A DNA stretch of 36,461 nucleotides, from assembly GCA_938042355.1 (NCBI GenBank), contig CALIRD010000153.1, positions 1 to 36,461 of the forward strand, given 5' to 3'. The stretch is from an uncultured Thiotrichales bacterium. Lineage in GTDB: Bacteria; Pseudomonadota; Gammaproteobacteria; CAZUMV01. Positions within the stretch are counted from its first letter, which is position 1. Every line of letters starts with the position of its first letter. Positions 13,879 to 36,455 of this stretch are shown in pieces. The position numbers and the translations under genes were made by a program. A model generated the notes under the pieces. That model saw nothing but the letters and a program-made list of their open reading frames with translations. It was not told the origin of the DNA and ran no database searches.

Positions 13879-14253
13879 ATGCGTCATCGTAAATCAGGTC
13901 GTCAGCTTAATAGAAACAGTAGCCATAGAAAGGCTATGTTTCAAAACATGACGAACTCATTGATCAAGCATGAATTGATCAAAACAACTTTGCCCAAAGC
14001 AAAAGAGCTACGTCGTATTGCCGAGCCATTGATTACGATGGCTAAAGAAGACGGCGTACATAAGCGTCGGCTGGCATTTGATCGTCTGCGTGATAAAGAG
14101 ACTGTTGGTAAGTTGTTTGGTGAACTTGGGCCACGCTACAAGGATCGCCCTGGCGGTTACTTACGTGTGTTGAAATGCGGTTTTCGTGCTGGTGACAATG
14201 CGCCAATGGCTTATGTCGAGCTGGTGGATAGACCCGAAGAAGACGAAGAATAA
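13879..14253 (+). CDS. rplQ: 50S ribosomal protein L17
   Basis: L17 is a 50S protein near the tunnel exit. The product has 124 residues (127 in E. coli), beginning [20 protein letters not shown] and retaining [20 protein letters not shown]. It is the last gene of the operon and is followed by a bidirectional terminator at 14284-14305. Confidence 0.98.
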
Positions 14254-14283
14254 GTCGTAAGACTTTTGTTTCAATAATAAAAA

Positions 14284-14305
14284 AGCCGGTTTAACCGGCT
14301 TTTTT
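14284..14305. terminator. Bidirectional intrinsic terminator between rplQ and uvrA
   Basis: AGCCGGT (14284-14290) and ACCGGCT (14294-14300) form a stem with a TTA loop, followed on the plus strand by six T (14300-14305). On the minus strand the same stem is followed by a T-rich stretch (complement of 14271-14284). It can therefore end both the ribosomal operon and the converging uvrA transcript. Confidence 0.9.
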
Positions 14306-14328
14306 ATTGCTTAACGAATAGTAGTGAT

Positions 14329-17151
14329 TCAATTTAATACTGGCTTAAGGAACTTGCCGGTATAGGAACGTTTACTGGTAGATACTTTTTCCGGTGTGCC
14401 GGTGGCGATTATTTGCCCACCACCATCGCCACCTTCTGGACCAAGATCCACGATCCAGTCCGCAGTTTTTATGACATCCAGATTATGCTCAATCACAATC
14501 ACAGTATTGTTTTCATCACGCAGGCGGTGCAGCACGGATAGCAACATCTGTATATCCTGAAAATGTAGACCGGTGGTTGGTTCATCCAGAATATAGATGG
14601 TCTTTCCAGTGCTTCGCTTGGACAGTTCTTTGGCCAGCTTGATGCGCTGAGCCTCACCGCCAGAAAGTGTGATCGCACTTTGTCCCAGCGTAATATAGGA
14701 AAGGCCAACATCCATTAGCGTTTGTAGTTTGCGATGGATATTGGGTACCGCACTAAAGAATTGAACGGCATCTTCCACCGTCATTTCCAGCACCTGATGT
14801 ATATTTTTTCCTTTGTAAAGTATGCCCAGAGTCTCACGGTTGTAACGTAAACCTCGGCAGACATCACAGGGTACATAAATGTCGGGTAGGAAGTGCATTT
14901 CTACTTTGATCATGCCGTCGCCCTGACAGGCTTCGCAGCGACCACCTTTAACATTAAAGCTGAAGCGACCGGGCTTATAGCCACGTGATCTAGCCTCGGG
15001 CGTACCCGAAAATAATTCTCTGATCGGTGTAAACAGCCCGGTATAGGTTGCCGGGTTGGAGCGCGGGGTACGTCCAATCGGACTTTGGTTAATATCCACC
15101 ACCTTATCAAAAAACTCCAGGCCTTCGATATCCTCGTGTGCAGCAACAGTGTGCGAACTCTTGTTAAGTTTGTTGGCGATCGCAGGATATAAGGTTTGAT
15201 TAATCAGTGTGGATTTCCCAGAACCGGAGACGCCTGTCACACAGGTCATCAAACCTACCGGTATTTCCAGTTTGACCGCTTTAAGATTGTTGGCGGTAGC
15301 ACCTGTCACCTTGAGGATCATGTTCTTGTCTATTGGTTTACGAGATTTCGGGATGTCTATGGACAGCTTTCCTGACAGGTATTGCCCGGTCAGAGATTCC
15401 TTGCTCTTAACTATTTGTTTGGGTGTTCCCGTAAAGCTAATGTGCCCGCCATGTACGCCTGCACCCGGGCCGATATCGACCACAAAGTCGGCTGTTTGAA
15501 TGGCTTCTTCATCGTGCTCAACCACGATAACCGTATTGCCCAAATCCCGAAGACGAATCAAAGTACTGATCAAACGCTGGTTATCTCGCTGATGCAGTCC
15601 GATAGATGGCTCGTCAAGAACGTACATCACGCCTACCAGACCGGCACCGATCTGGCTGGCGAGTCGTATACGTTGAGCTTCGCCACCCGAGAGGGTGTCC
15701 GCGCCACGGTTCAGAGATAAATACTCTAGACCCACATTATTCAAAAAGCTGAGGCGTGACTGTATTTCCTGAACTATTTTTTCAGCAATCTGGCCACGCT
15801 TGCCTTTGAGTTTTAATTTGGTAAAGAATTTGTCAGCGACTTTGACCGGCATGGCGGTGATTTCAGGTAATGACAACTCTTTAATAAAGACATGCCTGGC
15901 TTGTTCATTGAGACGTGTGCCGGAACAATCATCACATGAGTTGGTGGTGAGATATTTACTAAGCTCTTCGCGTACCGCATTTGAATCGGTTTCTCGAAAG
16001 CGTCGCTGCATATTGTTAACGACACCTTCAAAAGGATGGCTTTTTCTGAAGTATCCGCCTCGCTCATTTTTATAGCGAAATTCGATGACTGTTTTTCCAC
16101 TGCCATACAAGAGAATTTCTTTGTGTTTCTTACTGAGTTTGCGATAGGGGGTTTCAACATCAAATTTATAATGTCTTGCCAGAGACGACAGCATTTGAAA
16201 ATAATAGCCATTGCGTCTGTCCCAGCCACGGATAGCACCACCAGCAAGGCCCAGATCATCATTGATGACAATTTTTTCTGGATCAAAGCTTTGTCGCACT
16301 CCCAGACCATCACAGCTTTGGCAAGCGCCCACAGGACTGTTGAAAGAAAACAAACGAGGTTCGAGTTCGGAGAGTGAGTAACCACAGTGAGGGCAGGCAT
16401 ATTTAGATGAAAACACCAGATCCGCTTTCTTTGGCTTATCCATGTAGGCCAGTCTGACGATACCTTCGGATAAATTCAGGGTCGTTTCTATAGATTCTGC
16501 AAGTCGCAGTTGCAGGTCAGGTTTGACTTTAAAACGATCAACCACCACTTCAATCGTATGTTTTTGTTTTGGATTCAGCTTCGGGGTCTGATCCAGCTCA
16601 ACAATATCGCCGTTAATGCGAGCTCGAATAAATCCTTGCTGGCGCAAGTTTTCCAGAACACCTAGGTGTTCCCCTTTCCTTTCTTCGATAACCGGTGCCA
16701 GTAGCATCATACGGCTCTCTGCAGGTAGCTCAAGAATGATGTCAGTCATTTGGGACACGGTGCTGGCTTCGAGCGCTACGCCGTGCTCAGGGCATTGTGG
16801 TAAGCCTGCTCGGGCATAAAGCAGTCTCAGGTAATCATATATCTCGGTGATGGTGCCGACAGTAGATCTCGGGTTATGCGAGGTCGTTTTTTGCTCGATT
16901 GAGATCGCTGGTGAAAGTCCTTCGATATGATCTATATCTGGTTTTTCCATCATTGAGAGGAATTGCCGCGCATAGGCGGAGAGCGATTCTACATAGCGCC
17001 GCTGGCCTTCAGCAAAGATCGTGTCAAAGGCGAGTGAGGATTTCCCCGAGCCTGACAATCCAGTAATGACGATCAGTTTATTTCGCGGTAAATCAAGATC
17101 GATGTTCTTGAGATTATGGGTACGCGCGCCACGAATTGAAATTACTTCCAT
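14329..17151 (-). CDS. uvrA: UvrABC excision nuclease subunit A
   Basis: UvrA is the damage-recognition ATPase of nucleotide excision repair, working with UvrB in the cytoplasm. From the ATG at 17151 the protein has 940 residues, the E. coli length, and its N-terminus aligns ([12 protein letters not shown]). A TTG at 17169 would add six residues and seems less likely. Both ABC modules are complete: Walker [10 protein letters not shown] and GVSGSGKST, two LSGGEAQRI signatures, Walker [11 protein letters not shown] and [10 protein letters not shown]. Zinc-finger cysteines are seen in [15 protein letters not shown] and [14 protein letters not shown]. It converges on rplQ and diverges from the MFS gene. 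No LexA-type CTGT-N8-ACAG box is visible in the 59-nt upstream gap. Confidence 0.98.
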
Positions 17152-17210
17152 TAGCGAAGTGCTCTGCAAAACTTGCTAATATACACGGCTTGGCTACAAA
17201 GCGATAATAC
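17152..17210. promoter_or_regulatory. Divergent uvrA / MFS intergenic region
   Basis: Both genes must be transcribed from this 59-nt gap or from within each other. A TATATT box on the minus strand (17178-17183) could serve uvrA. A GATAAT on the plus strand (17203-17208) lies so close to the MFS ATG at 17211 that a transcript from it would be nearly leaderless. No convincing -35 box, ribosome-binding site for the MFS gene or SOS box was found. The assignment is tentative. Confidence 0.3.
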
Positions 17211-18566
17211 ATGCAATCTTCATCTACGAAATCATTGCTGGCGACTGAGCGCCGCTCAGTATTGGGTCTGGCATTGGTCTATGCGATTCGTATGCTGGGC
17301 TTGTTTTTGATCTTGCCCGTCTTCTCCTTGTATGCCAGAGAATTGCCGGGAACAACTGCCTTTATGATTGGTCTGGCGATTGGTATCTATGGTCTGACTC
17401 AGGCTATTTTTCAGATTCCTTTAGGTATTTTGTCTGACCGCATTGGACGCAAGCCAGTCATCATCGGTGGTTTGTGTATGTTGTTTGCCGGCAGTATTGT
17501 AGCGGCACTCTCGAGCTCAATCGAAGGCATTATCTTGGGCCGTGCTTTACAGGGGTGTGGTGCCATTGCGGCGGCGACTCTGGCTCTAGTGGGTGATCTC
17601 ACGCGCGATAGTGTTCGTAGTAGAGCCATGGCAGTCGTGGGGATGAGTATTGGTCTGTCATTTTTTATAGCGATGATAATCGCGCCATGGCTGGATAGTT
17701 TGATCGGTATAAAGGGGATTTTTTACTTTACTGCAGGTCTGGCAATACTCGCGATTGCTTTTGTCATCTATGTAGTGCCTTCGAGTCAGGTCGTTAGTGA
17801 GCCTGTAATTGTCCAGCAATCCTTATACAAAGTACTGCGTAACTCACAACTGTTACGCCTGGATCTTGGTATTTTTTGTTTACATTTATTATTAACGGCA
17901 GATTTCGTGGTGCTACCATTAATGCTGCTGGATTATTACCAGCTTGAGCCTGCTCGCCACTCCTGGGTTTATGCCGGGTGTCTGGTGGGTTCAGTCATTC
18001 TCATGGCTCCTTTTTTGATTTATGCAGAGAAAAAGAGGAAGCAAAAAAACATGTTCGCGGGAGCCTTGCTGGTATTGATTCTGAGTCATATCGGCTTGGC
18101 ATTTTTACCGGCTAGCCTGCTATTGGTAATCCTGTTGTTATTGCTTTTTCTGGCGGCATTTAATTTTCTGGAAGCCAGTTTACCGGCTCTCGTGACTCGC
18201 CATGCGCCGGCAGCACTCAAGGGCGCGGCGACCGGGGTGTACTCGAGTAGTCAGTTTTTTGGTATTTTCTGTGGTGGTCTGCTCGGAGGGTGGATTTACG
18301 GTCAATATGGTATGCGAGCAGTGTTTCTTGTAGGTGCTGTTCTGGTAGTGATCTGGCTGGTGTTCGCATTGGGTATGCGAGAGCCGCAAAGACTGAATAC
18401 TCACGTGGTAGACATCCCGGAAGGAAATTTAAATGATATCAAAGGCTTTAGCGATAAACTTGCAGCGCTGCCGGGGGTAGCTGAAGTAACCTTGGTAGAA
18501 AATAAAGCACATATAGAGGTGGATCCTGTTGTTTTCGATCAACAGGCGCTCGCTTTACTTGTATAA
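17211..18566 (+). CDS. yajR: MFS transporter, YajR-like with C-terminal YAM-type domain
   Basis: This is an inner-membrane major facilitator superfamily carrier with 451 residues and about twelve membrane helices. MFS motif A is present at 72-82 (GILSDRIGRKP). The whole protein follows E. coli YajR closely (RMLGLFLILPV, IGIYGLTQAIFQIPLG, ILGRALQGCGAIAAA). The last ~60 residues form a soluble extension (from about 392, including LPGVAEVTLVENKAHIEV) that matches the ferredoxin-like YAM domain of YajR. The substrate of this family is not established; drug or proton-linked efflux is the usual guess. The position between uvrA and ssb is the one seen in Pseudomonas. No ribosome-binding site is obvious before the ATG. 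Confidence 0.88.
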   Translation: MQSSSTKSLLATERRSVLGLALVYAIRMLGLFLILPVFSLYARELPGTTAFMIGLAIGIYGLTQAIFQIPLGILSDRIGRKPVIIGGLCMLFAGSIVAALSSSIEGIILGRALQGCGAIAAATLALVGDLTRDSVRSRAMAVVGMSIGLSFFIAMIIAPWLDSLIGIKGIFYFTAGLAILAIAFVIYVVPSSQVVSEPVIVQQSLYKVLRNSQLLRLDLGIFCLHLLLTADFVVLPLMLLDYYQLEPARHSWVYAGCLVGSVILMAPFLIYAEKKRKQKNMFAGALLVLILSHIGLAFLPASLLLVILLLLLFLAAFNFLEASLPALVTRHAPAALKGAATGVYSSSQFFGIFCGGLLGGWIYGQYGMRAVFLVGAVLVVIWLVFALGMREPQRLNTHVVDIPEGNLNDIKGFSDKLAALPGVAEVTLVENKAHIEVDPVVFDQQALALLV

Positions 18567-18593
18567 TGTGGGCTGAATTTGGAGGAATGAGTC

Positions 18594-19070
18594 ATGGCTG
18601 GAATAAATAAAGTTATCCTTGTGGGAAATCTGGGCAAGGATCCTGAAGTGAGATATGCGCCGAGTGGTTCGGCAATTACCAATATTACAATCGCTACCAG
18701 TGAGTCCTGGAAGGATAAGAACACGGGTGAAAAGCAGGAAAAAACCGAGTGGCACCGAGTGGTGTTTTTTAACAAGATAGCCGAGATCGCTGGTGAGTAT
18801 TTGCGTAAGGGTTCCAAGGTTTATATCGAAGGTAAATTACAAACACGCAAATGGACTGATAAAGAAGGTATGGACAGATACACCACGGAGATCGTTGTTG
18901 ATGGTTACAGTGGCGTGATGCAAATGCTGGATAGTAGAAGTGGTGGAGATTATGCGCCGCCAGCCGCAGCACCTGCTGCATCAAAACCTGCAGCGCCAGC
19001 CGCTGCTCCAGCCGCCGCTTCAGCTGCGCCAGCAATGGCTGATGATTTTGATGATGATATTCCGTTTTGA
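18594..19070 (+). CDS. ssb: Single-stranded DNA-binding protein
   Basis: SSB coats single-stranded DNA during replication, repair and recombination and recruits partner proteins. The product has 158 residues: an OB fold (1 to about 112) with the DNA-stacking tryptophans Trp39, Trp53 and Trp87 (matching E. coli Trp40, 54, 88), a linker of 120-147 made almost only of Ala, Pro and Ser/Lys, and the acidic tip DDFDDDIPF that binds partners. The linker is shorter and far more Ala/Pro-rich than the Gly/Gln-rich E. coli one. A GGAGG ribosome-binding site precedes the ATG. A strong terminator follows. Confidence 0.98.
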
Positions 19071-24624: not shown

Positions 24625-24978
24625 GAACCTTGTCACATTTGCCAAGTCTACTGTGACAGTTACCTCACAAGCGTGAAGGAATACGCGACCACAGTTCACA
24701 ATCTCATGTAGTATGCGTTCAACTGTTAGGAGAACAGCTGATAAAGGATGAGTGCAAGAGTTTCAAGGACAGAAGCTTACCTAATGCGATTCATTAATTT
24801 GTTTGTTAAAAAAGACAGATAGTGATCTAGCAAAAATACTTTAATCCCTGAACTCATGTTTTTACCGCTGACACTATCAAGTGATAAACGGTATTTATTT
24901 TAAGCTGAGAATTGCAGGTCATGCATTCCAATCAAGGATAATGTGCGACCAGATTTAAATAAGTTACTTGAGGATTAT
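24625..24978 (+). other. 354-nt non-coding gap before wecB
   Basis: No credible ORF is present. The stretch contains an inverted repeat at 24631-24658 and, further on, a weak hairpin (ACCG 24864-24867 with CGGT 24889-24892, enclosing CACT/AGTG) followed by an AT-rich run that could act as a weak terminator. A promoter for wecBC would be expected here, but no -35/-10 pair stands out. The wecB ribosome-binding site (GAGG, 24970-24973) lies at its end. Confidence 0.4.
24631..24658. repeat. 7-bp inverted repeat after the epimerase gene
   Basis: TGTCACA (24631-24637) and TGTGACA (24652-24658) are separated by 14 nt, starting six bases after the epimerase stop. There is no T-tract, so it is either a protein-binding dyad, an unusual transcription end, or chance. 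Confidence 0.5.
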
Positions 24979-26214
24979 ATGAGAATTTTATCTGTTATGG
25001 GTACCCGACCCGAAGCGATCAAAATGGCGCCACTGGCAATTGCATTAGCTGAAGATCCGCGCTTTGATGCCAGAGTATGTGTTACAGCTCAGCATCGAGA
25101 AATGCTGGATCAAGTGCTGGATCTTTTCGAAATCAAGCCTGAATACGATTTAGATATTATGAAGCCGGGACAAAGTTTGTCTGATGTGACTACTGCAATC
25201 CTCACAGGTATGCAAAATGTATTTGCTGAATTCAAACCCGATATAGTACTGGTGCACGGCGATACTGCTACTACAATCTCAACCACTCTGGCAGCTTTTT
25301 ATCAACAGATACCCGTCGCACACGTTGAGGCTGGTCTACGTACCGGAAATCTCTACTCACCGTGGCCGGAAGAAGCCAATCGAAAAATGACCGGAGTTTT
25401 GGCAGAAATACATTTTGCTCCGACATCAACCTCTGAAGCTAACCTGTTAGCCGAGGGTGTTGACGCTACAAAAATCCACGTTACTGGAAATACTGTTATT
25501 GATGCGCTTCTTGAGGTGGTTGAAAAAGTCAGTTCCAGAGATGACTTACAGCAACAATTTCAAAAGCAGTTCGAGTTCCTGGGTGATAGCAACCGCATGG
25601 TGCTGGTAACCGGGCACAGGCGAGAAAACTTCGGCGATGGTTTTGAAAACATTTGTCAGTCATTACTGCAAATAGCAAAAACTTTTCCAGATGTAAATGT
25701 GGTTTATCCGGTTCATTTAAACCCCAATGTAAGAGAGCCAGTCAATCGTCTACTTAGAGATGTTAGTAATGTGCATCTAATCGAGCCTCTTGATTACTTG
25801 CCATTTGTGTATCTGATGTCGAAAGCGACCATTATTTTGACTGATTCGGGTGGGATTCAAGAAGAAGCGCCGTCATTGGGCAAACCTGTGCTTGTCATGC
25901 GTGATACTACTGAACGACCTGAGGCAGTGGACGCAGGCACGGTAAAACTGGTCGGGACAGATCCTGATAACATCGAAAGAAACATCATAGAGTTGCTAAC
26001 AAATGATGTGGCTTACCACTCAATGAGCCAGGCTCATAACCCATATGGTGATGGTAAAGCATCGCAAAGAATTATTCGTGCCTTGGCTGATTATGCAGTT
26101 GATACACAAACCGACTTGTTAGGGGAGAATATTGATACTCCCGCTACACAATTAACCATGAAGAATAACGCTGCAGGAATGCAGAGTATTATCTCTGTTG
26201 AACCTGTGCTTTAA
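24979..26214 (+). CDS. wecB: UDP-N-acetylglucosamine 2-epimerase (non-hydrolysing)
   Basis: WecB interconverts UDP-GlcNAc and UDP-ManNAc. I chose ATG 24979 because a GAGG ribosome-binding site lies 5 nt upstream and [19 protein letters not shown] is the family N-terminus. With this start the catalytic residues Asp95, Glu117, Glu131 and His213 fall at the same numbers as in E. coli WecB. An upstream GTG at 24943 would add 12 residues without support. The protein has 411 residues against 376 in E. coli; the extra ~35 residues are a polar C-terminal tail (from about DYAVDTQTD). The gene pairs with wecC 9 nt downstream. Confidence 0.95.
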
Positions 26215-26223
26215 GGAAATAAA

Positions 26224-27519
26224 ATGAATTTTGAAAGAATATCAGTGGTAGGATTAGGCTATATAGGATTGCCAACTGCAGCTGTTTTTGCGTCACGTAA
26301 AAAGAGTGTCATTGGGGTTGATGTCAACCAAGATGCAGTAGACACGATTAATAGAGGTGAAATTCATATAGTCGAACCTGATTTAGATATGGTCGTCATG
26401 GGTGCTGTATCGCAAGGGTATTTAAAGGCAACTGTTACTCCCGAGCCTGCAGATGCTTTTGTAATTGCAGTACCTACACCTTTTAAAGATGATCATGTGC
26501 CAGATTTGGCTTATATAGAGGCGGCTAGTCGCGCGATTGCGCCTGTGCTTGAGAAAGGAAATTTAATTATTCTTGAGTCAACTTCGCCAGTTGGAGCTAC
26601 GGAGCAAATGGCAGATTGGCTATCTCAAGAAAGACCGGATCTAAGCTTTCCTCAAACTCATGGGGAAGAATCAGATATAAGGGTAGCTCATTGCCCAGAG
26701 CGAGTTTTGCCAGGACAGGTGTTAAGAGAATTAGTAGATAATGACCGCGTTATAGGTGGTATGACGCAAAAATGTTCTGAGGCTTCAGTGCAGTTATATA
26801 AAATTTTTGTTGAAGGCGAGTGTGTTATAACTAATGCGAGAACTGCTGAAATGGCAAAGTTAACCGAGAACAGTTTCCGTGATGTAAATATTGCATTTGC
26901 CAATGAGCTATCAATCATCTGTGATAAGCTTGATATCAATGTCTGGGAGTTAATCCAACTAGCGAATCGTCACCCTCGAGTTGATATTCTTCAGCCAGGA
27001 CCGGGTGTGGGAGGGCATTGCATAGCAGTGGATCCATGGTTTATTGTCAATAAAACACCAGATGAAGCTAAAATTATTAAAACTGCGCGTGTGGTGAATG
27101 ATGGTAAGCCTCAAATTGTAATTCAGACAATAACTTCTCACGCAGATAGATTGAATACAAAGACAGTACTGTGCCTGGGAGCTGCCTTTAAACCAGATAT
27201 TGACGATCTCAGAGAAAGCCCGGCCTTACGGATCATTAAATCGATTGCGTCTAAGGGCTATGCAGTAAAAGTTGTAGAGCCAAATATCGATACTTTGCCT
27301 AATGATTTACTTGAGCAAGGGTGCGAACTAATTAGTTTGGAAGAGGCGATTGATTATAAAAAACCAAATGCATTAGCTGTGCTTGTGGCACATAGACAAT
27401 TTGCAACCTCAAATGAACTGCGACTACAAGCACCTCTGGATTTTTGTGGTGCACTCAAAGAACGTAGAGCTGACAGACGTGCGATACAAGAATCTGCGGG
27501 TGTTGTGGAAGAGAAGTAG
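26224..27519 (+). CDS. wecC: UDP-N-acetyl-D-mannosamine dehydrogenase
   Basis: WecC oxidises UDP-ManNAc to UDP-ManNAcA using NAD+. The product has 431 residues of the UDP-sugar dehydrogenase family: VVGLGYIGLPTA (8-19), VPTPFKDDHVPDL, ESTSPVGATE, AHCPERVLPG, and catalytic Cys266 in GVGGHCIAVDPWF, which is the WecC-type rather than the Ugd-type context. It follows wecB by 9 nt with an AAGGAAAT ribosome-binding site. The product would feed ManNAcA into a capsule, O-antigen or enterobacterial-common-antigen-like polymer. Confidence 0.94.
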   Translation: MNFERISVVGLGYIGLPTAAVFASRKKSVIGVDVNQDAVDTINRGEIHIVEPDLDMVVMGAVSQGYLKATVTPEPADAFVIAVPTPFKDDHVPDLAYIEAASRAIAPVLEKGNLIILESTSPVGATEQMADWLSQERPDLSFPQTHGEESDIRVAHCPERVLPGQVLRELVDNDRVIGGMTQKCSEASVQLYKIFVEGECVITNARTAEMAKLTENSFRDVNIAFANELSIICDKLDINVWELIQLANRHPRVDILQPGPGVGGHCIAVDPWFIVNKTPDEAKIIKTARVVNDGKPQIVIQTITSHADRLNTKTVLCLGAAFKPDIDDLRESPALRIIKSIASKGYAVKVVEPNIDTLPNDLLEQGCELISLEEAIDYKKPNALAVLVAHRQFATSNELRLQAPLDFCGALKERRADRRAIQESAGVVEEK

Positions 27520-27612
27520 TAAATTATCAATTCCTAAGGCACATAAAGTATCAGTTTCAGCAATACTGATGATAAGGTATTGTCTAGTACTCTCCTACTG
27601 CACCATCCAAAA

Positions 27613-29172
27613 ATGCCGCAATTGACTCATTTCATAAAATGGAATTTATTGGTCCCCTTCGTTTCAAGAATGAAGAAATTGAAACGAAGCATCATAAAAA
27701 ATAAATTACAAAAGTTACGACAAGAGGCGGTAGAGTTAGAGCGCGCCGGTTATCTTGAACATGCGCGAAAAAAAATACTGGAAATGAAGTCTTCTTTCGG
27801 AACAAGCGATCTCGCTAGACTTGGTAACATCGAATGGCGATTACAACTATTAAATACTGGCTACCCTTTCCCTCAGGAAACTAATTCTAAGTTAAATACC
27901 GAGAAAAATACCGTAGCGATTTTGTTATACAACAGCCTTCCCTATACATCAGCAGGTTACGCAACTCGTAGTCACGGTCTGGCGCTCTCGCTCATTAAAA
28001 AGAACTGGAAAGTTGAGTGCTTAACCAGATATGGATTTCCAACAGATATAAGATTAAACGAAGGGAGAAATGTAAAAGCACAAGAAGAAATAGATGCAGT
28101 TCTTTATTCGCGGTTACTTCCTGTGGTAAGTGAGGTTGTGACAATTGGTAGTGAAAAATACTATTTGTTAAATAATGAGGCAGTTACTGAACGAATAAAG
28201 AAAATCAGGCCGTCTGTAATTCATGCCGCGTCTAATCACATAAATGGTATAGCTGCATGTGTGGCTGGAGCAAAACTTGGTATACCAACTATTTATGAGG
28301 TTCGAGGTCTCTGGGATATAACGCGTGCCTCTGCAGAGCCAGAATATGGAAACAGTGAATTATATTATCAGTCACTTCGCCTTGAAATTGATGTCTGCAA
28401 TAAAGTAACGAAAGTTTGTGTTATTACTTATGCGCTAAAAGAGTATTTGGTTGCGAAAGGAGTGGAGGCTGAAAAAATTACAGTAGTGCCGAATGGTGTT
28501 GATACGACACGTTTTAATCCAATGCCACGTGACCAGCACTTACTACATAAATTGAAATTAAGTAATAAAGTGATTATAGGTTATGTTGGTTCTATGCAGC
28601 AGTATGAGGGGCTGGATATTTTGTTAAATGCACTTTTTCTTTTAAATGGTAAAACCAAGTCAGGTTTTCACTTTTTAGCTGTAGGAGATGGTACCGAGTT
28701 ACAGTCCCTCAAGAAAAAAGTATCTCAATTAGGTTTAGACGAGGTCGTCACTTTTACTGGAAGAGTGCCTTATAATGATGTTGATCGTTACTACTCGCTA
28801 ATAGATATTTGTCCATTTCCACGTAAGGATCAGTTAGTATGCCAATTGGTATCTCCATTGAAACCTTTTGAGGCGATGTCAATGAGTAAGGCCATAGTAG
28901 TCTCAGATGTCAATGCACTTAAGGAGTCAGTTGAGCATAACGTCAATGGCTTGGTTCATAACGCCGGGGATGAAGGTGATCTTGCTGAGAAACTTAGAAT
29001 ATTAATCGATGATTCGAGTCTAATTGAAGAGCTCGGAAAAGCTGCACGAGAGTGGGTTGTTGAGCATCGTGACTGGCAGGCTATAGCTAAAAAGTTAGTT
29101 GGGGTATATGACAGTGCTATCAAATTGGATTGTCAGAGTGATGAAGTGCATAAGTCGCAAATGAGGATTTAA
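27613..29172 (+). CDS. GT4-family glycosyltransferase with helical N-terminal extension
   Basis: This is a retaining GT-B glycosyltransferase of the GT4 type; donor and acceptor are unknown. From ATG 27613 it has 519 residues. An in-frame TTG at 27580 and an ATG at 27670 are alternative starts; none has a good ribosome-binding site. Residues ~20-80 are charged and helical (LQKLRQEAVELERAGYLEHA), possibly TPR-like. The Rossmann domains begin near 100 (VAILLYNSLPYTSAGYATRS). Family motifs VVPNGVD (291-297), YVGSMQQYEGLD and SPLKPFEAMSMSKAIVVSD (about 414-432) are clear. The 3' end contains the ribosome-binding site for the next gene, so the two are co-expressed. Codon usage is AT-rich. Confidence 0.85.
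   Translation: MPQLTHFIKWNLLVPFVSRMKKLKRSIIKNKLQKLRQEAVELERAGYLEHARKKILEMKSSFGTSDLARLGNIEWRLQLLNTGYPFPQETNSKLNTEKNTVAILLYNSLPYTSAGYATRSHGLALSLIKKNWKVECLTRYGFPTDIRLNEGRNVKAQEEIDAVLYSRLLPVVSEVVTIGSEKYYLLNNEAVTERIKKIRPSVIHAASNHINGIAACVAGAKLGIPTIYEVRGLWDITRASAEPEYGNSELYYQSLRLEIDVCNKVTKVCVITYALKEYLVAKGVEAEKITVVPNGVDTTRFNPMPRDQHLLHKLKLSNKVIIGYVGSMQQYEGLDILLNALFLLNGKTKSGFHFLAVGDGTELQSLKKKVSQLGLDEVVTFTGRVPYNDVDRYYSLIDICPFPRKDQLVCQLVSPLKPFEAMSMSKAIVVSDVNALKESVEHNVNGLVHNAGDEGDLAEKLRILIDDSSLIEELGKAAREWVVEHRDWQAIAKKLVGVYDSAIKLDCQSDEVHKSQMRI
27657..27689. repeat. 11-bp perfect inverted repeat around an ATG
   Basis: CTTCGTTTCAA (27657-27667) and TTGAAACGAAG (27679-27689) are perfect complements with an 11-nt loop that contains the in-frame ATG at 27670. 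No T-tract follows on either strand. A smaller inverted repeat (ATCAGT 27550-27555 with ACTGAT 27565-27570) lies 87 nt upstream. Confidence 0.8.
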
Positions 29173-29173
29173 A

Positions 29174-30895
29174 TTGAAGAGTCAATCCTTTAGTTCGATT
29201 ACTTGGTTCAAAGCGTTAAGCGCGAAAATGTACAGGGTGGTACCTGGTCATACCTCACTAATTGTTATTTTAGACCTTTTATCCCAGATCTCTCTGATTT
29301 TGGCATTTTTCTTACCACTAAAAGTGATTATCCTCCTTGGATCCCCAGATCTACCCGAGTACTTTCCTAGCAGTTGGCATACTATTGAGCGTGATCGTCT
29401 GGTTGTTTTATTGTCTCTTTCCGCAGCAGTTGCTTATTTATTTTATGCTATTGTAGATAAGCTGGTAACTGTACTGACTGAGCAGGCGGCAGTAAAAATA
29501 CTAAGAACAAAGCCTCATCTACTTGAAGATATCAAGCACGAGACAATGACAAAGTTGTTATATGGGCGGTATGTGAAAATCGTCTCGAGTTTGTTGTTTT
29601 CATTGATAGCAATAATTTCAATTGCTTTCATTTACACCTCTCTATTACTGCCCTTGAGCGTGTTTTGTTTAATAGCAGGTTGTGTAGTCTATTTTATTAT
29701 TGCTAATCGAAGGAAAGTAAACTCTAACCCGTTTTCTAATATTAATGTGATTATTACTACCATAGGTGCGTTAGGTTTTTTATCGATGTTTGCATTTATG
29801 GTGAGTGATTTTATTATCTTGCCAGCACCTGGTGTTATCGCAGCAGTGATTGGATTATTACTCGTCAGGCAGTTATTTTCACGTTTGGTGGTTTTCGTTG
29901 TTAACACAACACGATTGATTGAAAACAAGCCAGTTGTGAATACGCTCTTTTTTAACCAAATAGAGTCTAAAAGTATAGCGTCTGTCAACGAAAAAAGTGC
30001 CTGGGAAATGGTGCATCAGGAGCAGAGGGAAAATTGGATTCACCCTATTCTTAAAAAGCATATGGACAGTGATACATCTGCGCTTAAGATTGAATGCATT
30101 GAGTTAGGAGAAGATGGTGTAGTTGCAATGATTGTGACTAATCTACTTATGAGTTCAAATAGTCATCATTCCAGACTCTTGCTTAAGCTTTATGATAAAA
30201 AATGTTCGCAACTATCCCGTCAAGAATCTATTTTATTGCAGAAAAACCTAGTCAATCACCTATGGCCAAAGATGTTAGCTACATACAAAGTGGGTGATTT
30301 TAATTGTCACGTATATGAGTGGCGTTCTTCAGAAATCTTACCTGAGAGCGAGTACTTGGTTAGAAATGTAGAAATTCTTGACACCTTAATGTCTACACCG
30401 GTATCTAAAAAATTACTAAGAGAGTTTGATGACTCGCGTTTTGAGACTTTTGGAAGCCTTGACGAAACAACTCTGAGGAGATTGTATTTATGTGCAAGTC
30501 CTCCAGAGACTGATTTGCTAGATACGCTGGTAGCCATTAAGCCGAAAATTATGAAAATTTGGCGGTCTTCACCAAAACAAATAGTGAATCCGGATATTAC
30601 TAAAGATAATGTATTAGTCACTGACGATAAGAGAGTATTCACATTACATTGGGGTAGGTGGTCATTACAGTCAGTAGGCTCCGGCTTGTTTATAAATCCT
30701 GAAGTCTACTCCAAATTGCCTCAAATATTTATTTCGGCAAAACAAAGTAGAGAAGACCTGAAGACTTTTTCTCTCAATACAATCAGATTGAATGCTTGTG
30801 TCTACGAATTCGAGAAGTTGTGTGCAATGCACAAATATAATTTAGCGTTAAAGGTATTGCCCGAGCTCGTCGAACACGCGTCAACACACGAATAA
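29174..30895 (+). CDS. Membrane protein with six-helix domain and degenerate kinase-like domain (TTG start)
   Basis: I do not recognise this 573-residue protein as a named family. The TTG at 29174 is supported by GAGGA at 29163-29167, 6 nt upstream; ATG 29228 is the alternative. Six membrane helices are predicted at about 29-55, 76-95, 136-156, 157-177, 192-213 and 219-243, arranged like an ABC-exporter membrane domain but with no ATPase domain. The cytosolic part (about 275-573) looks kinase-like: LLLKLYD with Lys338 (beta-3 type), Glu351 in SRQESILL, NPDITKDNVLV with Asp474 and Asn479 (catalytic-loop type, with Asn in place of His), and HWGRW (491 onward) where the metal-binding Asp of DxD/DFG would be His492. 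It is coupled to the glycosyltransferase upstream and converges on the 1319-residue gene. Function is unknown; activity may be lost. Confidence 0.75.
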   Translation: MKSQSFSSITWFKALSAKMYRVVPGHTSLIVILDLLSQISLILAFFLPLKVIILLGSPDLPEYFPSSWHTIERDRLVVLLSLSAAVAYLFYAIVDKLVTVLTEQAAVKILRTKPHLLEDIKHETMTKLLYGRYVKIVSSLLFSLIAIISIAFIYTSLLLPLSVFCLIAGCVVYFIIANRRKVNSNPFSNINVIITTIGALGFLSMFAFMVSDFIILPAPGVIAAVIGLLLVRQLFSRLVVFVVNTTRLIENKPVVNTLFFNQIESKSIASVNEKSAWEMVHQEQRENWIHPILKKHMDSDTSALKIECIELGEDGVVAMIVTNLLMSSNSHHSRLLLKLYDKKCSQLSRQESILLQKNLVNHLWPKMLATYKVGDFNCHVYEWRSSEILPESEYLVRNVEILDTLMSTPVSKKLLREFDDSRFETFGSLDETTLRRLYLCASPPETDLLDTLVAIKPKIMKIWRSSPKQIVNPDITKDNVLVTDDKRVFTLHWGRWSLQSVGSGLFINPEVYSKLPQIFISAKQSREDLKTFSLNTIRLNACVYEFEKLCAMHKYNLALKVLPELVEHASTHE

Positions 30896-30922: not shown

Positions 30923-33900
30923 TCAACTGCCATAATTTTGACTATCTTGAGATCTGAAGGCTATTGCCTTGTTAGAAAGGCTGATTACATTTTCTCGGTT
31001 AATGATAGTGTTTTCTTTCCCCTGCGGTGTTCTAAATAAATCGATTTCTTGACTAATAGTTTGGTCTATTGATGTTTGGTTTCTGACCCTGGCTGCGGCG
31101 TTTTCTGACATTGACAAATATAGCTCTTTGTTAAGATATAGTTTCTCAATTCCATTTGCTAAACCTTCAGCATCTTCCGCTTCTGCCAGAATGCCACAAT
31201 TTTTATCCACAAATTCTGGGATAGCAGCTACTGCTGTAGTGATTGGAACCAGGCCTGATGACATTGCCTCATCTCTTGAGACACCCTGAGAATCGGTTCG
31301 TGTTGGTACGAGTAAGACGCCATATTCTTTATGTAGTGCTGCAATTTCACTATGGGTTAAAAATTTCTGCATTAGTTTGACGTTCTTGTATTTTTTTACT
31401 GGCTTTGTAAGCTCATCAAACAACTCCCCATCACCAACAATTAAAAACTCTAATTCTGAAAACCACTCTTTAGTTGATAGTAATTCAATCGCTGCTATTG
31501 TTAGGTCATTTGCGTATTTACGAGATGCGAATGGACGAATTGATAGAATTTTTTTACGCTGAGCGGGGGGTTTTTCAACATAATTAAACACATGAGTATC
31601 AATCGGATTATGGATGATTGAGTACTTTGATTTAGGGACAGTTACTCCCAAGTCGTTCATAATTTCATCAGCGAAATATTGTGAGACGAAGACAAAATTC
31701 AAGTTCTCAGGGATGTTGGCAAATAGCTCTCGCCAAAATTTCATGCGATGTTCGCATAGTGCTTTAGTGTGCTCAACCTCAGCATTATCCATGCGTTCGA
31801 ATTCATATGTTCGTCTCTTCCAATGCTGGATTTCAGCTCCATGTATCCATGCCGTTACTTTGATGTCCGAAATATGCGGCTTTAAAATTTCCCACATATT
31901 TTTATCCATAAGATGTACCAATACATGCTCGTATTGTCCGGTTTCAATAGTATTTCTGAAGAGATGGTTGTCGCCGCTAACTACGTCAACATTTTCGAAT
32001 TCCTGGAAAAATTTATTCGGGTGTTGGTCGAGTTTGAAAACATCAACATCAGTCTGTAGATCTTTATAAGCTTTGACACGTGAATGCAGGAATCCATACT
32101 TATATAAATCATCATATGAAGGATACTGCTTTGTCATTACTAAAGCTGTGTTGTTTGCTACAACTGTCATTGGGGCTTCTTTGTTTTTTGCAAAAGTGAC
32201 CTTTCGAATGCTGGATAAGCCATTTCCAATAACTTTAAATCCTAGTCTTATATGGGTGCATTCATTGGGAATTGCCAAAGTTGTTGAGTCTTGAACTGGA
32301 CCAATATGGTGAGAGGTTTTGTTTTTATCTGAGTCGAGAAATTCAAATACTATCTTTATATGGTTTTCTTTTGTTTCACAAGACACCTGGAATTCACTGT
32401 TTTTGTTCAGGTTGAGTTCATCACGACTATATAAATTATCTAGATAGAAATAGTTATGCTGACCTGCCCCAAGTTTTGATTCAATTGTCATCTGGTTTTC
32501 ATGCATTGCTAATTTGAGTCTGCTGGATTGTGGTTGCGTGATTGACTCCATAATCGCTTCAGCGGTCAGGGTTATTTGGTCTGGTGATGGGAGTTTTTCA
32601 TTACTCTCCCTAGCTCTCAGAGAGTTTGCAGTTTGATAGAGATTATGAAGGTTTGCACCAATGTCCAGATCTTTTAAGTCGCTTACAAGATTCTCATAGA
32701 ATTCTGGTGAATATTTGGTAGCATTTTTACAGTAATGAAATTCATCCAAGGCTATAAGCGTTTTTTCAGATCTAATAATGGCATCATCGGGTGAGCTAAT
32801 AAATGCATTTAATACTCCATCATCTAGAATTTGATCGCTGATGATTGAACAGCGTAGTGGTAGATCGCCTGTTAGTTTGTATTGTTGATTATCGTCGGCA
32901 ATGAGGCATTGATCATTTTCCATGTGATAGAAGGTTTTCTTGCCATAGGCGTATCCTTCTGTATATTTCTCACCAGCCATTAGGTCAGTAAGAAAGTTTG
33001 TACCATAATAATCCTTGGGGTTAATGAATCCGTAGTACTGCGCTTTTCCAGACTCTTTATATAAGTCAGAAATTTCCGAAGTTATTTGGATATTTTGGTT
33101 TAGGTCAATACCCATAGTTTTACTCTTCGTATATATGACCAGTCTTTTGTTGGAGTAGTTTTGTCTTGTGAACTGTTCTATTACATTCTCAGCATCTTTC
33201 GCCGAACTGACTACGCTAAACACTAAAATTTCTTTTTCTTTTTGTTCGAAAGACCATTCCCGTAGCGTTAGTAGTAAATAATGTAATCTATGTCTATAAG
33301 TGTGCTCACTCATTACTTTTCTCAAAGCCATGAGGCGATGTTTTCTGTAAACAAGTTCTGAATCATTCAGTGGTGTTAATCGACGCTCTATTTCTGAATT
33401 GTTATCAGATGAAATCACAAGGTCACCAAACAATCTTCTCATGCCACGTGAAAAATTACTCACTACAATAGTGTTTGACGCCATCAATTCGAATACTCTT
33501 CGAGCGAACATGCTTTGTGATTCTTTTATTGTATTTAGATTGATACCATATTTATATCCCTTGTATGCAATATCAATATCTTCGAAAGGCAGGGTGCCTA
33601 CTATGTGTTTATTAAAAGACTCTGGAAATTGATAATGTGGATGGTCGTTTTCGTAGTTTCTATCGTAAATATCCAATTTGCCAAACTCACTTACCGCGTT
33701 CACTAGCATACCAATGTCACGCTGTCGCTCCGGGTAGCGCAGGTAATAAGACCCGGCAAAACAAAAACCGTCTTTTCTTTTTTTGCTTTCAATTGGATTG
33801 TGATTTTTAGTTTGTGCTGCAAACGGTAGAAAATACACATTGTCTGTTTCACAGTCATATTTGTATTTTGGTATGCAATCAACGTCGGTTGTAAATATGA

Positions 33901-34882
33901 AGTCAACCTGCCGTGCAATTTCTAAAAAAGTCGAATAATGCGCAGGGTCTTCCTTATTCCAAAGCATACTTGGAATGTTCTGACTTTTGCACCAGGCTAT
34001 TATTGATTTTATTTCAACAGAGTTATTGCTGATTTTAGTCTTCCATAGACCATCTAATCCTTGCCAGGCAGATTCAATGAAAACAAAATGTGGGGCAAAG
34101 TCAATTAGTTGTTGTTTCCAGTTAACAGGGTGTATCTGCAGCACATTGCATTCATTTTCATATGAGTGTTGTGTGAAGGGATCCATTATTCCTGCAACTC
34201 TAATTTCTTTCAGGGTTTCGGGTTTGGACTTTGTGGCTTCATATAAAGATGGGATCAATGCATCTGAACTAAATACATTATTTGGTAACTTGTTGCTTGT
34301 TTTCCTCTTAGCTGGCACGACTTTCTGGCTGGATACATCAATGATCATTTCATTTATTAGCAACCTTCCTTTTCCTTCGATGCGTAAGTTGAGAATAACC
34401 TTTTTGATGCCTTTTCCTGGTGTGTATCGTTTCTTTTGATTCAGTGCAATCCTTTGAATCCCGGTTCTGTAAGAGTGCCCATCAAACTCGAGTATATTCA
34501 GCGAGCACTTTAGATCCCCGGTAATGGTCCCAATGCAGTAAAGGTCCAATACCGTGTTTGTGTTTACCGATATACCTGATGATTTTGCAATTTTTTTATA
34601 CTCGCTCGTTTGAGCGTTATGAATGAAATTCAGTTCTGAATTTTTAGTGATAGTAATACTGGTGCCAAATTTATTACACTCTGTTAATACGTGCTTAGCT
34701 GCTACATTATTGTTTGTGTTCCATCCAAGGCTTGCGAATTTCTTTAGCCCCCTGACCTTAAAAAAGATATCTCTGTTATTGTATAAATGTTGGCTGATTC
34801 TTTCAGGTGACCGAAAAACTAGTAATCTATCTATTTTTTTTTGCGGAGTCTGGATACTTATTGGGGCTTTATATTTTTTCAT
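30923..34882 (-). CDS. Giant multi-domain glycosyltransferase (CgeB-like and GT4 modules)
   Basis: This 1319-residue protein has several modules. Residues ~55-185 look like a beta-sandwich. About 225-545 resemble the CgeB/DUF3880 GT-B glycosyltransferases (FCFAGSYYLRYPERQRDI, KYGINLNTIKESQSMFARRV, FELMASNTIVVSNFSRG). About 550-740 resemble a degraded GT2-like fold (ILVFSVVSSAKDAENVIEQF). About 785-900 are a second beta-sandwich. About 905-1285 are a GT4 domain with AWIHGAEIQHW, IHNPIDTHVF, LSIRPFASRKYAN and TRTDSQGVSRDEAMSSGLVP (1195-1214). No signal peptide or membrane helix is seen, so it is cytosolic. It is encoded opposite to its neighbours, in AT-rich DNA. It probably adds more than one sugar to a surface glycan; acceptor and donors are unknown. 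Confidence 0.82.
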   Translation of the reverse strand: MKKYKAPISIQTPQKKIDRLLVFRSPERISQHLYNNRDIFFKVRGLKKFASLGWNTNNNVAAKHVLTECNKFGTSITITKNSELNFIHNAQTSEYKKIAKSSGISVNTNTVLDLYCIGTITGDLKCSLNILEFDGHSYRTGIQRIALNQKKRYTPGKGIKKVILNLRIEGKGRLLINEMIIDVSSQKVVPAKRKTSNKLPNNVFSSDALIPSLYEATKSKPETLKEIRVAGIMDPFTQHSYENECNVLQIHPVNWKQQLIDFAPHFVFIESAWQGLDGLWKTKISNNSVEIKSIIAWCKSQNIPSMLWNKEDPAHYSTFLEIARQVDFIFTTDVDCIPKYKYDCETDNVYFLPFAAQTKNHNPIESKKRKDGFCFAGSYYLRYPERQRDIGMLVNAVSEFGKLDIYDRNYENDHPHYQFPESFNKHIVGTLPFEDIDIAYKGYKYGINLNTIKESQSMFARRVFELMASNTIVVSNFSRGMRRLFGDLVISSDNNSEIERRLTPLNDSELVYRKHRLMALRKVMSEHTYRHRLHYLLLTLREWSFEQKEKEILVFSVVSSAKDAENVIEQFTRQNYSNKRLVIYTKSKTMGIDLNQNIQITSEISDLYKESGKAQYYGFINPKDYYGTNFLTDLMAGEKYTEGYAYGKKTFYHMENDQCLIADDNQQYKLTGDLPLRCSIISDQILDDGVLNAFISSPDDAIIRSEKTLIALDEFHYCKNATKYSPEFYENLVSDLKDLDIGANLHNLYQTANSLRARESNEKLPSPDQITLTAEAIMESITQPQSSRLKLAMHENQMTIESKLGAGQHNYFYLDNLYSRDELNLNKNSEFQVSCETKENHIKIVFEFLDSDKNKTSHHIGPVQDSTTLAIPNECTHIRLGFKVIGNGLSSIRKVTFAKNKEAPMTVVANNTALVMTKQYPSYDDLYKYGFLHSRVKAYKDLQTDVDVFKLDQHPNKFFQEFENVDVVSGDNHLFRNTIETGQYEHVLVHLMDKNMWEILKPHISDIKVTAWIHGAEIQHWKRRTYEFERMDNAEVEHTKALCEHRMKFWRELFANIPENLNFVFVSQYFADEIMNDLGVTVPKSKYSIIHNPIDTHVFNYVEKPPAQRKKILSIRPFASRKYANDLTIAAIELLSTKEWFSELEFLIVGDGELFDELTKPVKKYKNVKLMQKFLTHSEIAALHKEYGVLLVPTRTDSQGVSRDEAMSSGLVPITTAVAAIPEFVDKNCGILAEAEDAEGLANGIEKLYLNKELYLSMSENAAARVRNQTSIDQTISQEIDLFRTPQGKENTIINRENVISLSNKAIAFRSQDSQNYGS

Positions 34883-35153: not shown

Positions 35154-36455
35154 ATGGAACAAAGAATACAAGTATCAATGATCGTTTGGAATGAGTTTCT
35201 AAATGATGCAAGAGTGCTGAAAGAGGCAGAGTCTCTACAAGCTGCTGGATATCAGGTCATCGTTTATGCACTCAAGCTTAGAGCTCAGACTCCCCGATAT
35301 ACAACATTGATTTCTGGTGTGGAGGTTGTACGGGTGGAGCATTTGGGTACGCTCGGTAGAATAAGTAAATTTTTACAGCGCGTGTTTTTGTTCAAGGCGG
35401 TGAGGGTAACCTCTTCGGTAGAAAAAAAGCCCAGTGGTCCGATTAATAAAATTCCTTTGCGAAGAAGAATCATTCTGGTTACCAGGCGCATGATGACCCA
35501 TCTGCGTTTATTGAGGATGTTAATTGCTTCAAAGCCGGATGTTGTACAGGCACATGATGTGAATACGCTGGTAACTGCATGGCTGGCCGCCAAAATTCGG
35601 CGTGTGCCATTGGTGTATGATGCCCATGAAATCAGTACCGATAGAGAAGGGTATGCCAGTTTTCGTAACCTGGTAGGGTGGGTCGAGAAACGTTTGATGC
35701 CGGGTACCGCCTTTTCAATTACAACGACTGATACTCGCGCGAAATTTTTTGCGCGTGCGTATGGCATACCGCGTCCTTTGGTATTACAAAACAGGCCTCG
35801 CTATCAGGAAGTGAAAAATACGGATCGAATACGCACCGAGTTGAATATAACTGATGATTTACCGATTGTTTTGTATCAAGGCGGATTGCAACAAGGCCGA
35901 GGCTTACATCGAATTGTTGATGCGGCCAAAAGTGTTACCAATGCTCATTTTGTGCTGATTGGAGGCGGGCGTTTAGAAGACACTTTGAAACAACAGTCAA
36001 TTGATGCTGGATTGGAAACGCGTGTTCATTTTATTCCAACCGTAGCCCTTGCCGAACTACCTGAATACACCGTTTCAGCCGATATAGGTGTGCAGGCAAT
36101 TGAAAATACCTGCCTCAATCATTTTTCGACCGATTCAAACAAGTTATTTGAGTACTTGGTCGCAGGATTACCTATTGTTGCTACCAACCTGCCTGAAATA
36201 CGGAAAATAGTTCGAGAATTCGACTTGGGTCATTTAGTCGCGCCCGGTGATACCGTACAATTAGCCGGTGCTATCCAGAAGTTGGTGGATAGTGAAGAGC
36301 TGAGAAAAAAATTCACGCTCAATGCCAGCAATACAGCGAAAGAACTGAATTGGCAGGCTCAGGAAAAGGACTTTATTGATGCCTACACGGATGTCGTCAA
36401 TGCTAATTATCAACAATCTTCAATAGGGCAATCTGTTGAAGATACTATTCCTTAG
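35154..36455 (+). CDS. GT4-family glycosyltransferase
   Basis: This 433-residue protein is a GT-B glycosyltransferase. The N-terminal domain shows VWNEFLNDARVLKEAESL (11-28) and VVQAHDVNTL (130-139), then PLVYDAHEI (152-160). The C-terminal nucleotide-sugar domain has VLYQGGLQQGRG (239-250), FVLIGGGRLED, and the family E-rich motif NKLFEYLVAGLPIVATNLPE (329-348). It is typical of capsule or exopolysaccharide clusters; the donor is unknown. It is divergent from the giant glycosyltransferase, ends six bases before the window edge, and may head an operon that continues beyond it. A clear ribosome-binding site before the ATG is lacking. Confidence 0.88.
   Translation: MEQRIQVSMIVWNEFLNDARVLKEAESLQAAGYQVIVYALKLRAQTPRYTTLISGVEVVRVEHLGTLGRISKFLQRVFLFKAVRVTSSVEKKPSGPINKIPLRRRIILVTRRMMTHLRLLRMLIASKPDVVQAHDVNTLVTAWLAAKIRRVPLVYDAHEISTDREGYASFRNLVGWVEKRLMPGTAFSITTTDTRAKFFARAYGIPRPLVLQNRPRYQEVKNTDRIRTELNITDDLPIVLYQGGLQQGRGLHRIVDAAKSVTNAHFVLIGGGRLEDTLKQQSIDAGLETRVHFIPTVALAELPEYTVSADIGVQAIENTCLNHFSTDSNKLFEYLVAGLPIVATNLPEIRKIVREFDLGHLVAPGDTVQLAGAIQKLVDSEELRKKFTLNASNTAKELNWQAQEKDFIDAYTDVVNANYQQSSIGQSVEDTIP

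Follow-up and report, generated by a model that had tools for sequence, protein, structure and literature searches.

A recurring protein of gammaproteobacterial surface-polymer clusters joins an ABC exporter-like membrane domain to a predicted pseudokinase

The window, i.e. the whole 36,461-nucleotide stretch of DNA from an uncultured Thiotrichales bacterium that was analysed here, carries on its forward strand a gene at positions 29174..30895 (the end coordinate takes in the stop codon) that encodes a protein of 573 aa. The frame is open throughout, its TTG start codon is preceded by GAGG 7 nt upstream, and the gene is found in a single copy in its own genome (2.24-Mb assembly, 72% complete). 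Searches of Pfam and NCBIfam with the 573-aa protein returned no family over cut-off, in agreement with a first-pass annotation that knew of no named family with this layout. Modelling predicts six membrane helices followed by a soluble C-terminal domain.

The gene lies in a cluster that Pfam and NCBIfam assign to nucleotide-sugar and glycan synthesis, in the order RmlA-like nucleotidyltransferase, rmlD, rmlB, UDP-glucose dehydrogenase-type gene, epimerase, wecB, wecC, GT4 glycosyltransferase, the 573-aa gene, a 1319-aa glycosyltransferase and a further GT4. The UDP-GlcNAc 2-epimerase WecB (24943..26214; TIGR00236, 548 bits) and the WecC-type UDP-ManNAc dehydrogenase (26224..27519; NF008286, 681 bits) both exceed their cut-offs and are encoded on the forward strand, as is the upstream GT4 (27580..29172; PF00534, 3.1e-26; TIGR04063, 3.4e-85 but under its cut-off), the stop codon of which is separated from the start of the 573-aa gene by a 1-bp gap. 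Convergent to these genes, 30923..34882 on the reverse strand encodes the 1319-aa protein (PF00534, PF13524), in which two regions resemble glycosyltransferases and an N-terminal stretch of about 300 residues matches nothing in Pfam. The last GT4 (35154..36455, forward strand; PF00534, 2.3e-21) is followed by the end of the contig; therefore, any export genes of the cluster fall outside the view. We also observed that L17 (rplQ), uvrA, MFS and ssb genes precede the family-bearing region both in the window (13879-19070) and in genome G053 (locus L034, 5965-12378). The family members of these two genomes are very diverged despite the common upstream gene set, and the gene order suggests a shared site for surface-glycan genes.

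Profile searches revealed 11 carriers of related genes among 369 genomes of the class and further carriers in other draws, the pairwise identity of most members being about 14-33%; a single-protein query of genome contigs gave no match. Furthermore, the motif WGxWS[LI]EPxG was turned into a degenerate DNA pattern, which matched 45 contigs in a collection of 84,980 species; 40 of these encode the protein. The 52 members that were aligned are nearly all from Gammaproteobacteria. Carriers are known in Halomonas, Billgrantia, Vreelandella, Chromohalobacter, Salinicola, Pseudomonas, Microbulbifer, Marinobacter, Gilvimarinus, Thioalkalivibrio, Ectothiorhodospira and Wenzhouxiangella; Chelativorans and a single Spirochaetaceae assembly are the outliers. 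Since the open frame and the two-domain layout recur in about 50 diverged relatives, the gene is more than a chance reading frame, and a decayed pseudogene was rejected as the frame is open and the diverged relatives are intact. The genomes nearest to that of the window, from the same genus and the same family, lack the gene, which is therefore accessory. Plasmid and phage collections contained no copies of the family, and plasmid or phage cargo was rejected on this ground.

The N-terminal membrane domain spans 29174..29959 on the forward strand. In the full-length AF2 model (28 sequences, pLDDT 85), an elbow-like helix (residues 2-22) precedes six TM helices (residues 24-56, 73-112, 120-153, 155-181, 190-215 and 221-250), and the domain modelled alone reached a pLDDT of 87 and a pTM of 0.83. 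Foldseek against the PDB returned type IV ABC exporters for all of the best 50 matches (prob 0.85-1.0), with CydDC, PCAT1 and PglK on top and MsbA also among the 50; the best E-value was 0.007, none was below 0.001, and TM-scores on the query did not exceed 0.63. Profile comparison gave 33% against ABC transmembrane domains versus no more than 0.54% for any of 15 other polytopic proteins, which is weak but specific sequence support for an exporter fold. PF00664 remained under its cut-off. At the level of models, the assignment of the membrane half to the six-helix type IV ABC exporter fold is thus well supported, and the first-pass description of about six hydrophobic helices, exporter-like and devoid of an ATPase domain, held. 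The membrane part did not turn out to be a known flippase family, which that annotation had named as counter-evidence: neither Pfam nor NCBIfam claims this part. Walker A and the LSGGQ signature are absent from all 52 members. An ordinary ABC exporter with a separate nucleotide-binding domain (NBD) was rejected, as no stand-alone NBD gene adjoins the family gene in 14 loci examined or in the window.

The TM helices of the model are about 26-40 residues long and the cytoplasmic loops are short; as such helices are short for an ABC exporter, they would leave little room for normal coupling helices. Conservation within the membrane is marked at three places: Pro48-Leu49-Lys50 near the end of TM1 (29315..29323; P in 43/43 members and K in 42/43), where Lys50 lies within the helix and is conserved at 98%; the acidic position Asp95 within TM2 (29456..29458; D or E in 82%); and Arg232 within TM6 (29867..29869; basic in 98%). 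Position 95 is the only well-conserved acidic position inside the helices, and there is no glutamate ladder. On average, the membrane domain is at least as conserved as the kinase-like lobes. A search for other architectures of the N-terminal domain found a single TM-only relative, a stand-alone 298-aa membrane domain without the kinase-like domain, encoded beside a GT2 gene (L012, 1435-2331, reverse strand).

The C-terminal domain (residues 275-573; 29996..30892, forward strand) was modelled with an N-lobe sheet, an alphaC helix and a helical C-lobe with beta6-beta8, in the order of secondary structures of a kinase. Foldseek against the PDB matched it to CcrZ (7s3l, E 2.4e-6), LicA (4r7b), APH(2'') and choline kinases, all with a prob of 1.0. 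In hhalign, the family aligned with APH proteins of related genomes at 94% (E 1.2e-7) versus less than 1% for controls with unrelated sets, and in this alignment NPD falls opposite the catalytic HxD, while HW falls opposite the metal-site Asp-Trp/Phe. Pfam matches to the same superfamily stayed below threshold and came from one member each (Choline_kinase, 0.0014, with the C-terminal domain of the window protein alone; APH, 0.02; APH_6_hur, 0.028); the best Choline_kinase score was 18.5 bits against a cut-off of 29, and the cut-offs of PF01636 and PF01633 were not reached. Sequence searches of the PDB gave nothing useful and a Pfam search with the family consensus failed to retrieve APH, so that the claim of fold stands on structure and profile comparison. 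With these, an APH/choline-kinase bilobal fold is well supported for the modelled domain, as the first reading of the sequence had supposed in calling this part kinase-like. Directly downstream of one family member, a true APH-family protein is encoded (L083, 1422-2486, forward strand; PF01636, 1.2e-6); it gave the best single-sequence score against the family (52%).

The residues singled out in the first-pass annotation, Lys338, Glu351, NPDITKDN with Asp474 and Asn479, and HWGRW with His492, lie exactly where it had placed them, and in the model they map to beta3, alphaC, the beta6-beta7 loop and just after beta8, respectively. The alphaC Glu351 (30224..30226) is invariant (50/50) and the beta3 position Lys338 (30185..30187) is K in 35 of 50 members, Q in 11 and R in 3, the window protein having both residues. 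In contrast to HxDxxxxN, the catalytic loop reads N472-P-D474-I-T-K-D-N479 (30587..30610), with N472 in 39/51, D474 in 26/51 and N479 in 11/51, and the histidine of HxD is His in no member of the alignment. The segment of the lost metal-binding Asp, H492-W-G-R-W-S-L-Q-S-V-G502 (30647..30679), has Asp at position 492 in 5/52 members only, as compared with W493 in 50/52, W496 in 51/52 and G502 in 52/52. This segment holds the best-conserved piece of the C-terminal domain, the family motif WGxWS[LI]EPxG; the sample was partly picked by that motif, position 492 being outside the selection, and most members found independently by profile have it as well. The glycine-rich beta1-beta2 nucleotide loop is absent. 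Catalytic Asp, loop Asn and metal Asp occur together in none of the 52 members, and both Asps in one (L010); with the catalytic set incomplete throughout, an active kinase was rejected. The first-pass annotation had left a choice between a pseudokinase and an altered kinase. As neither Asp474 nor Asn479 is conserved and Asp is rare at position 492, the former is favoured over the latter, and comparison of the aligned sequences gives good support to the view that the whole family, rather than one odd gene, consists of pseudokinases.

The family belongs to surface-polymer clusters and is found most often beside a glycosyltransferase. Among the 40 loci that have a co-directional gene within 150 bp, that gene is a GT4 or GT2 glycosyltransferase in 24, frequently with overlapping ends. 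The suggested tie to glycosyltransferases is therefore common but not universal, and the gene does not always sit with them: other neighbours include alginate lyase- or heparinase-like proteins, NeuB, ATP-grasp proteins, Mur ligases, and a TagD-like cytidylyltransferase with LicD-family and glycerophosphotransferase genes, the cytidylyltransferase and LicD-family genes lying near the family gene in three loci. No single partner gene is common to all loci. In two genomes, G801 and G364, the family gene is paired with Mur ligases and not with glycosyltransferases, which makes one fixed glycan substrate unlikely. In these loci (L036, 6352-14962, and L033, 10888-15091), Mur ligase-like proteins flank the family member, together with a protein that contains an HExxH-like region and a repeated domain of 550-600 aa without a Pfam match, which in G364 is fused to the Mur ligase; they possibly encode an undescribed peptide-like polymer system. 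Another locus (L026, 5411-9178, reverse strand) encodes a 1255-aa fusion of TPR, CDP-glycerol glycerophosphotransferase and GT4 beside a GDPD-domain protein; a gammaproteobacterium may therefore make a surface polymer of the teichoic-acid kind.

Within about 10 kb on each side, the family protein is the only one with at least four predicted TM segments in 8 of 14 loci (L025-L029, L035-L037). The PF01943 flippase is present in 9 of 15 carrier genomes, that of the window among them, and absent from the other 6, which include three single-contig genomes with a completeness of 100 (G055, G801 and G364); as Wzx was searched in carriers only and PF01943 was the one probe, this absence is an incomplete one. 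A Wzy_C protein occurs in 14 of the 15 genomes, about 9-11 kb from the family gene in G055 and G272, and in several Halomonas and Billgrantia the 8-kb locus itself contains Wzy_C proteins. G055 also encodes a complete ABC exporter some 20 kb from the family gene. The sole-polytopic position, the carriers without PF01943 and the Wzy_C proteins would fit a role in translocation; the nine carriers with PF01943 and the exporter of G055 speak against it.

The first-pass annotation proposed that the protein could sense, modify or flip a lipid-linked glycan. We tentatively favour, at somewhat less than an even chance, an NBD-less ABC-like carrier of an anionic lipid-linked precursor in surface-polymer assembly, with a pseudokinase in the place of the ATPase that would probably dock glycosyltransferases. 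The N-terminal half would descend from, or have converged on, the type IV ABC exporter transmembrane domain, and a non-catalytic APH/choline-kinase-fold domain would hang where the ATPase is expected. The membrane half may move or present the precursor by means of Lys50, Asp/Glu95 and Arg232 inside the helices. With no ATPase in the protein, the driving force would be an ion gradient or mass action. On the cytoplasmic side, the pseudokinase could bind a ligand or a partner glycosyltransferase through the WGxWSLEPxG segment and thereby couple synthesis to translocation. That the protein dimerises, transports and docks is our inference, as are its substrate and its source of energy. The bolder version, a new class of Gram-negative lipid-linked precursor flippase that is ABC-like without an ATPase, replaces Wzx in some pathways and is gated by a pseudokinase sensing the state of glycosyltransferases or nucleotide sugars, is rather unlikely.

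The strongest competing explanation is a pure scaffold, in which the membrane half would serve as an anchor only and the pseudokinase would gather glycosyltransferases and other enzymes without any transport. This is a substantial possibility, given the glycosyltransferase genes that adjoin or overlap in 24/40 loci, the precedent of EcpK, a pseudokinase scaffold for exopolysaccharide synthesis (PMC12004946), and the fact that the C-terminal domain is most strongly conserved in a new motif and not in its active site. However, an anchor would need neither an exporter-like fold nor a lysine and an arginine conserved at 98% inside helices, a membrane domain no less conserved than the kinase-like lobes is not expected of it, and the 298-aa relative keeps the membrane half alone.

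Two further explanations appear improbable. An altered phosphotransferase, which would use rearranged catalytic residues to phosphorylate a sugar, a lipid or an alcohol, would account for the invariant alphaC Glu, the mostly retained beta3 Lys and an Asp474 kept in half of the family; the LicA-like fold and the cytidylyltransferase and LicD-family genes of three loci are also reminiscent of the lic pathway. In contrast, the catalytic set is complete in no member and the glycine-rich loop is gone; as the equivalent Asp is essential for the activity of CcrZ (PMC9135335), its loss in the other half of the family argues against phosphotransfer. There is an equally slim chance that the protein is a regulator: its membrane half would detect a lipid-linked intermediate and its pseudokinase would pass the signal on to synthesis enzymes, in the manner of the mycobacterial lipid II flippase MviN, whose pseudokinase domain is regulated through FhaA (PMC11898655). 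Besides this precedent, the sporadic, accessory distribution with surface-polymer clusters would suit such a sensor, but no single partner gene is conserved across loci and a non-exhaustive look found no signalling partner. Finally, an ABC transporter half borrowing an NBD encoded elsewhere in the genome, which the type IV ABC-like fold and the elbow helix might recall, is highly improbable given the short cytoplasmic loops, the 14 loci without an adjacent NBD gene and a C-terminal domain that already fills the NBD position.

On the favoured reading of an NBD-less carrier, this unnamed, recurring family would consist of ABC exporter-like proteins that have a dead kinase instead of their power domain. 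It bears on how surface polymers move where no Wzx is apparent and on the role of APH-fold pseudokinases in bacteria, and carriers in cultured genera (Halomonas, Pseudomonas, Marinobacter and Microbulbifer), with Halomonas maura and Marinobacter pelagius among them, are suited to tests.

Compared with known systems, the 573-aa protein does not have the PF01943 Polysacc_synt profile or the 12-14 TM helices of Wzx. It resembles PglK, MsbA and the type IV ABC exporters in its predicted six-helix fold and in having the membrane part first and a cytoplasmic domain after TM6; these have an NBD there, whereas the family lacks Walker A and LSGGQ and has a pseudokinase in that place. Similarly, LicA, CcrZ and APH share the fold of the C-terminal domain, the alphaC Glu and, in most members, the beta3 Lys, but the family has lost the catalytic loop and the metal Asp and gained a membrane domain and WGxWSLEPxG. 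SbmA/BacA (SLiPT) proteins likewise have a type IV ABC-like TM core without an NBD or coupling helices; however, their TM helices number eight, they carry a glutamate ladder and they lack elbow helices (PMC13316013), unlike the six TM helices, elbow and added pseudokinase of the family, and the SbmA/BacA Pfam family does not match the 573-aa protein. EcpK, a tyrosine pseudokinase, is comparable as a scaffold in exopolysaccharide assembly in Myxococcus, but it has a bacterial tyrosine kinase-like fold and is a separate protein with a polysaccharide co-polymerase as its partner (PMC12004946), whereas the family protein is a fusion.

Two known ideas are combined here, the NBD-less ABC-like carrier and the carrier-pseudokinase fusion, and in the literature searched we found no description of the combination. 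The second idea is that of MviN, which has about 15 TM helices, the MOP fold and a pseudokinase of the Ser/Thr-kinase type; the 573-aa protein does not have a MurJ-type membrane domain and is not an MviN/MurJ member. As far as PMC11898655 relates it, mycobacterial MviN is a lipid II flippase with a C-terminal pseudokinase domain, regulated through FhaA (Gee et al. 2012, cited in PMC11898655), so that the likeness to MviN/MurJ is that of a polytopic lipid-precursor carrier joined to a pseudokinase in cell-envelope synthesis. The family instead has six ABC-like helices and a domain of the APH/choline-kinase type. MviN is the closest conceptual precedent, yet unlike in both parts; the family would be a second carrier-pseudokinase fusion after MviN, unrelated to it in fold.
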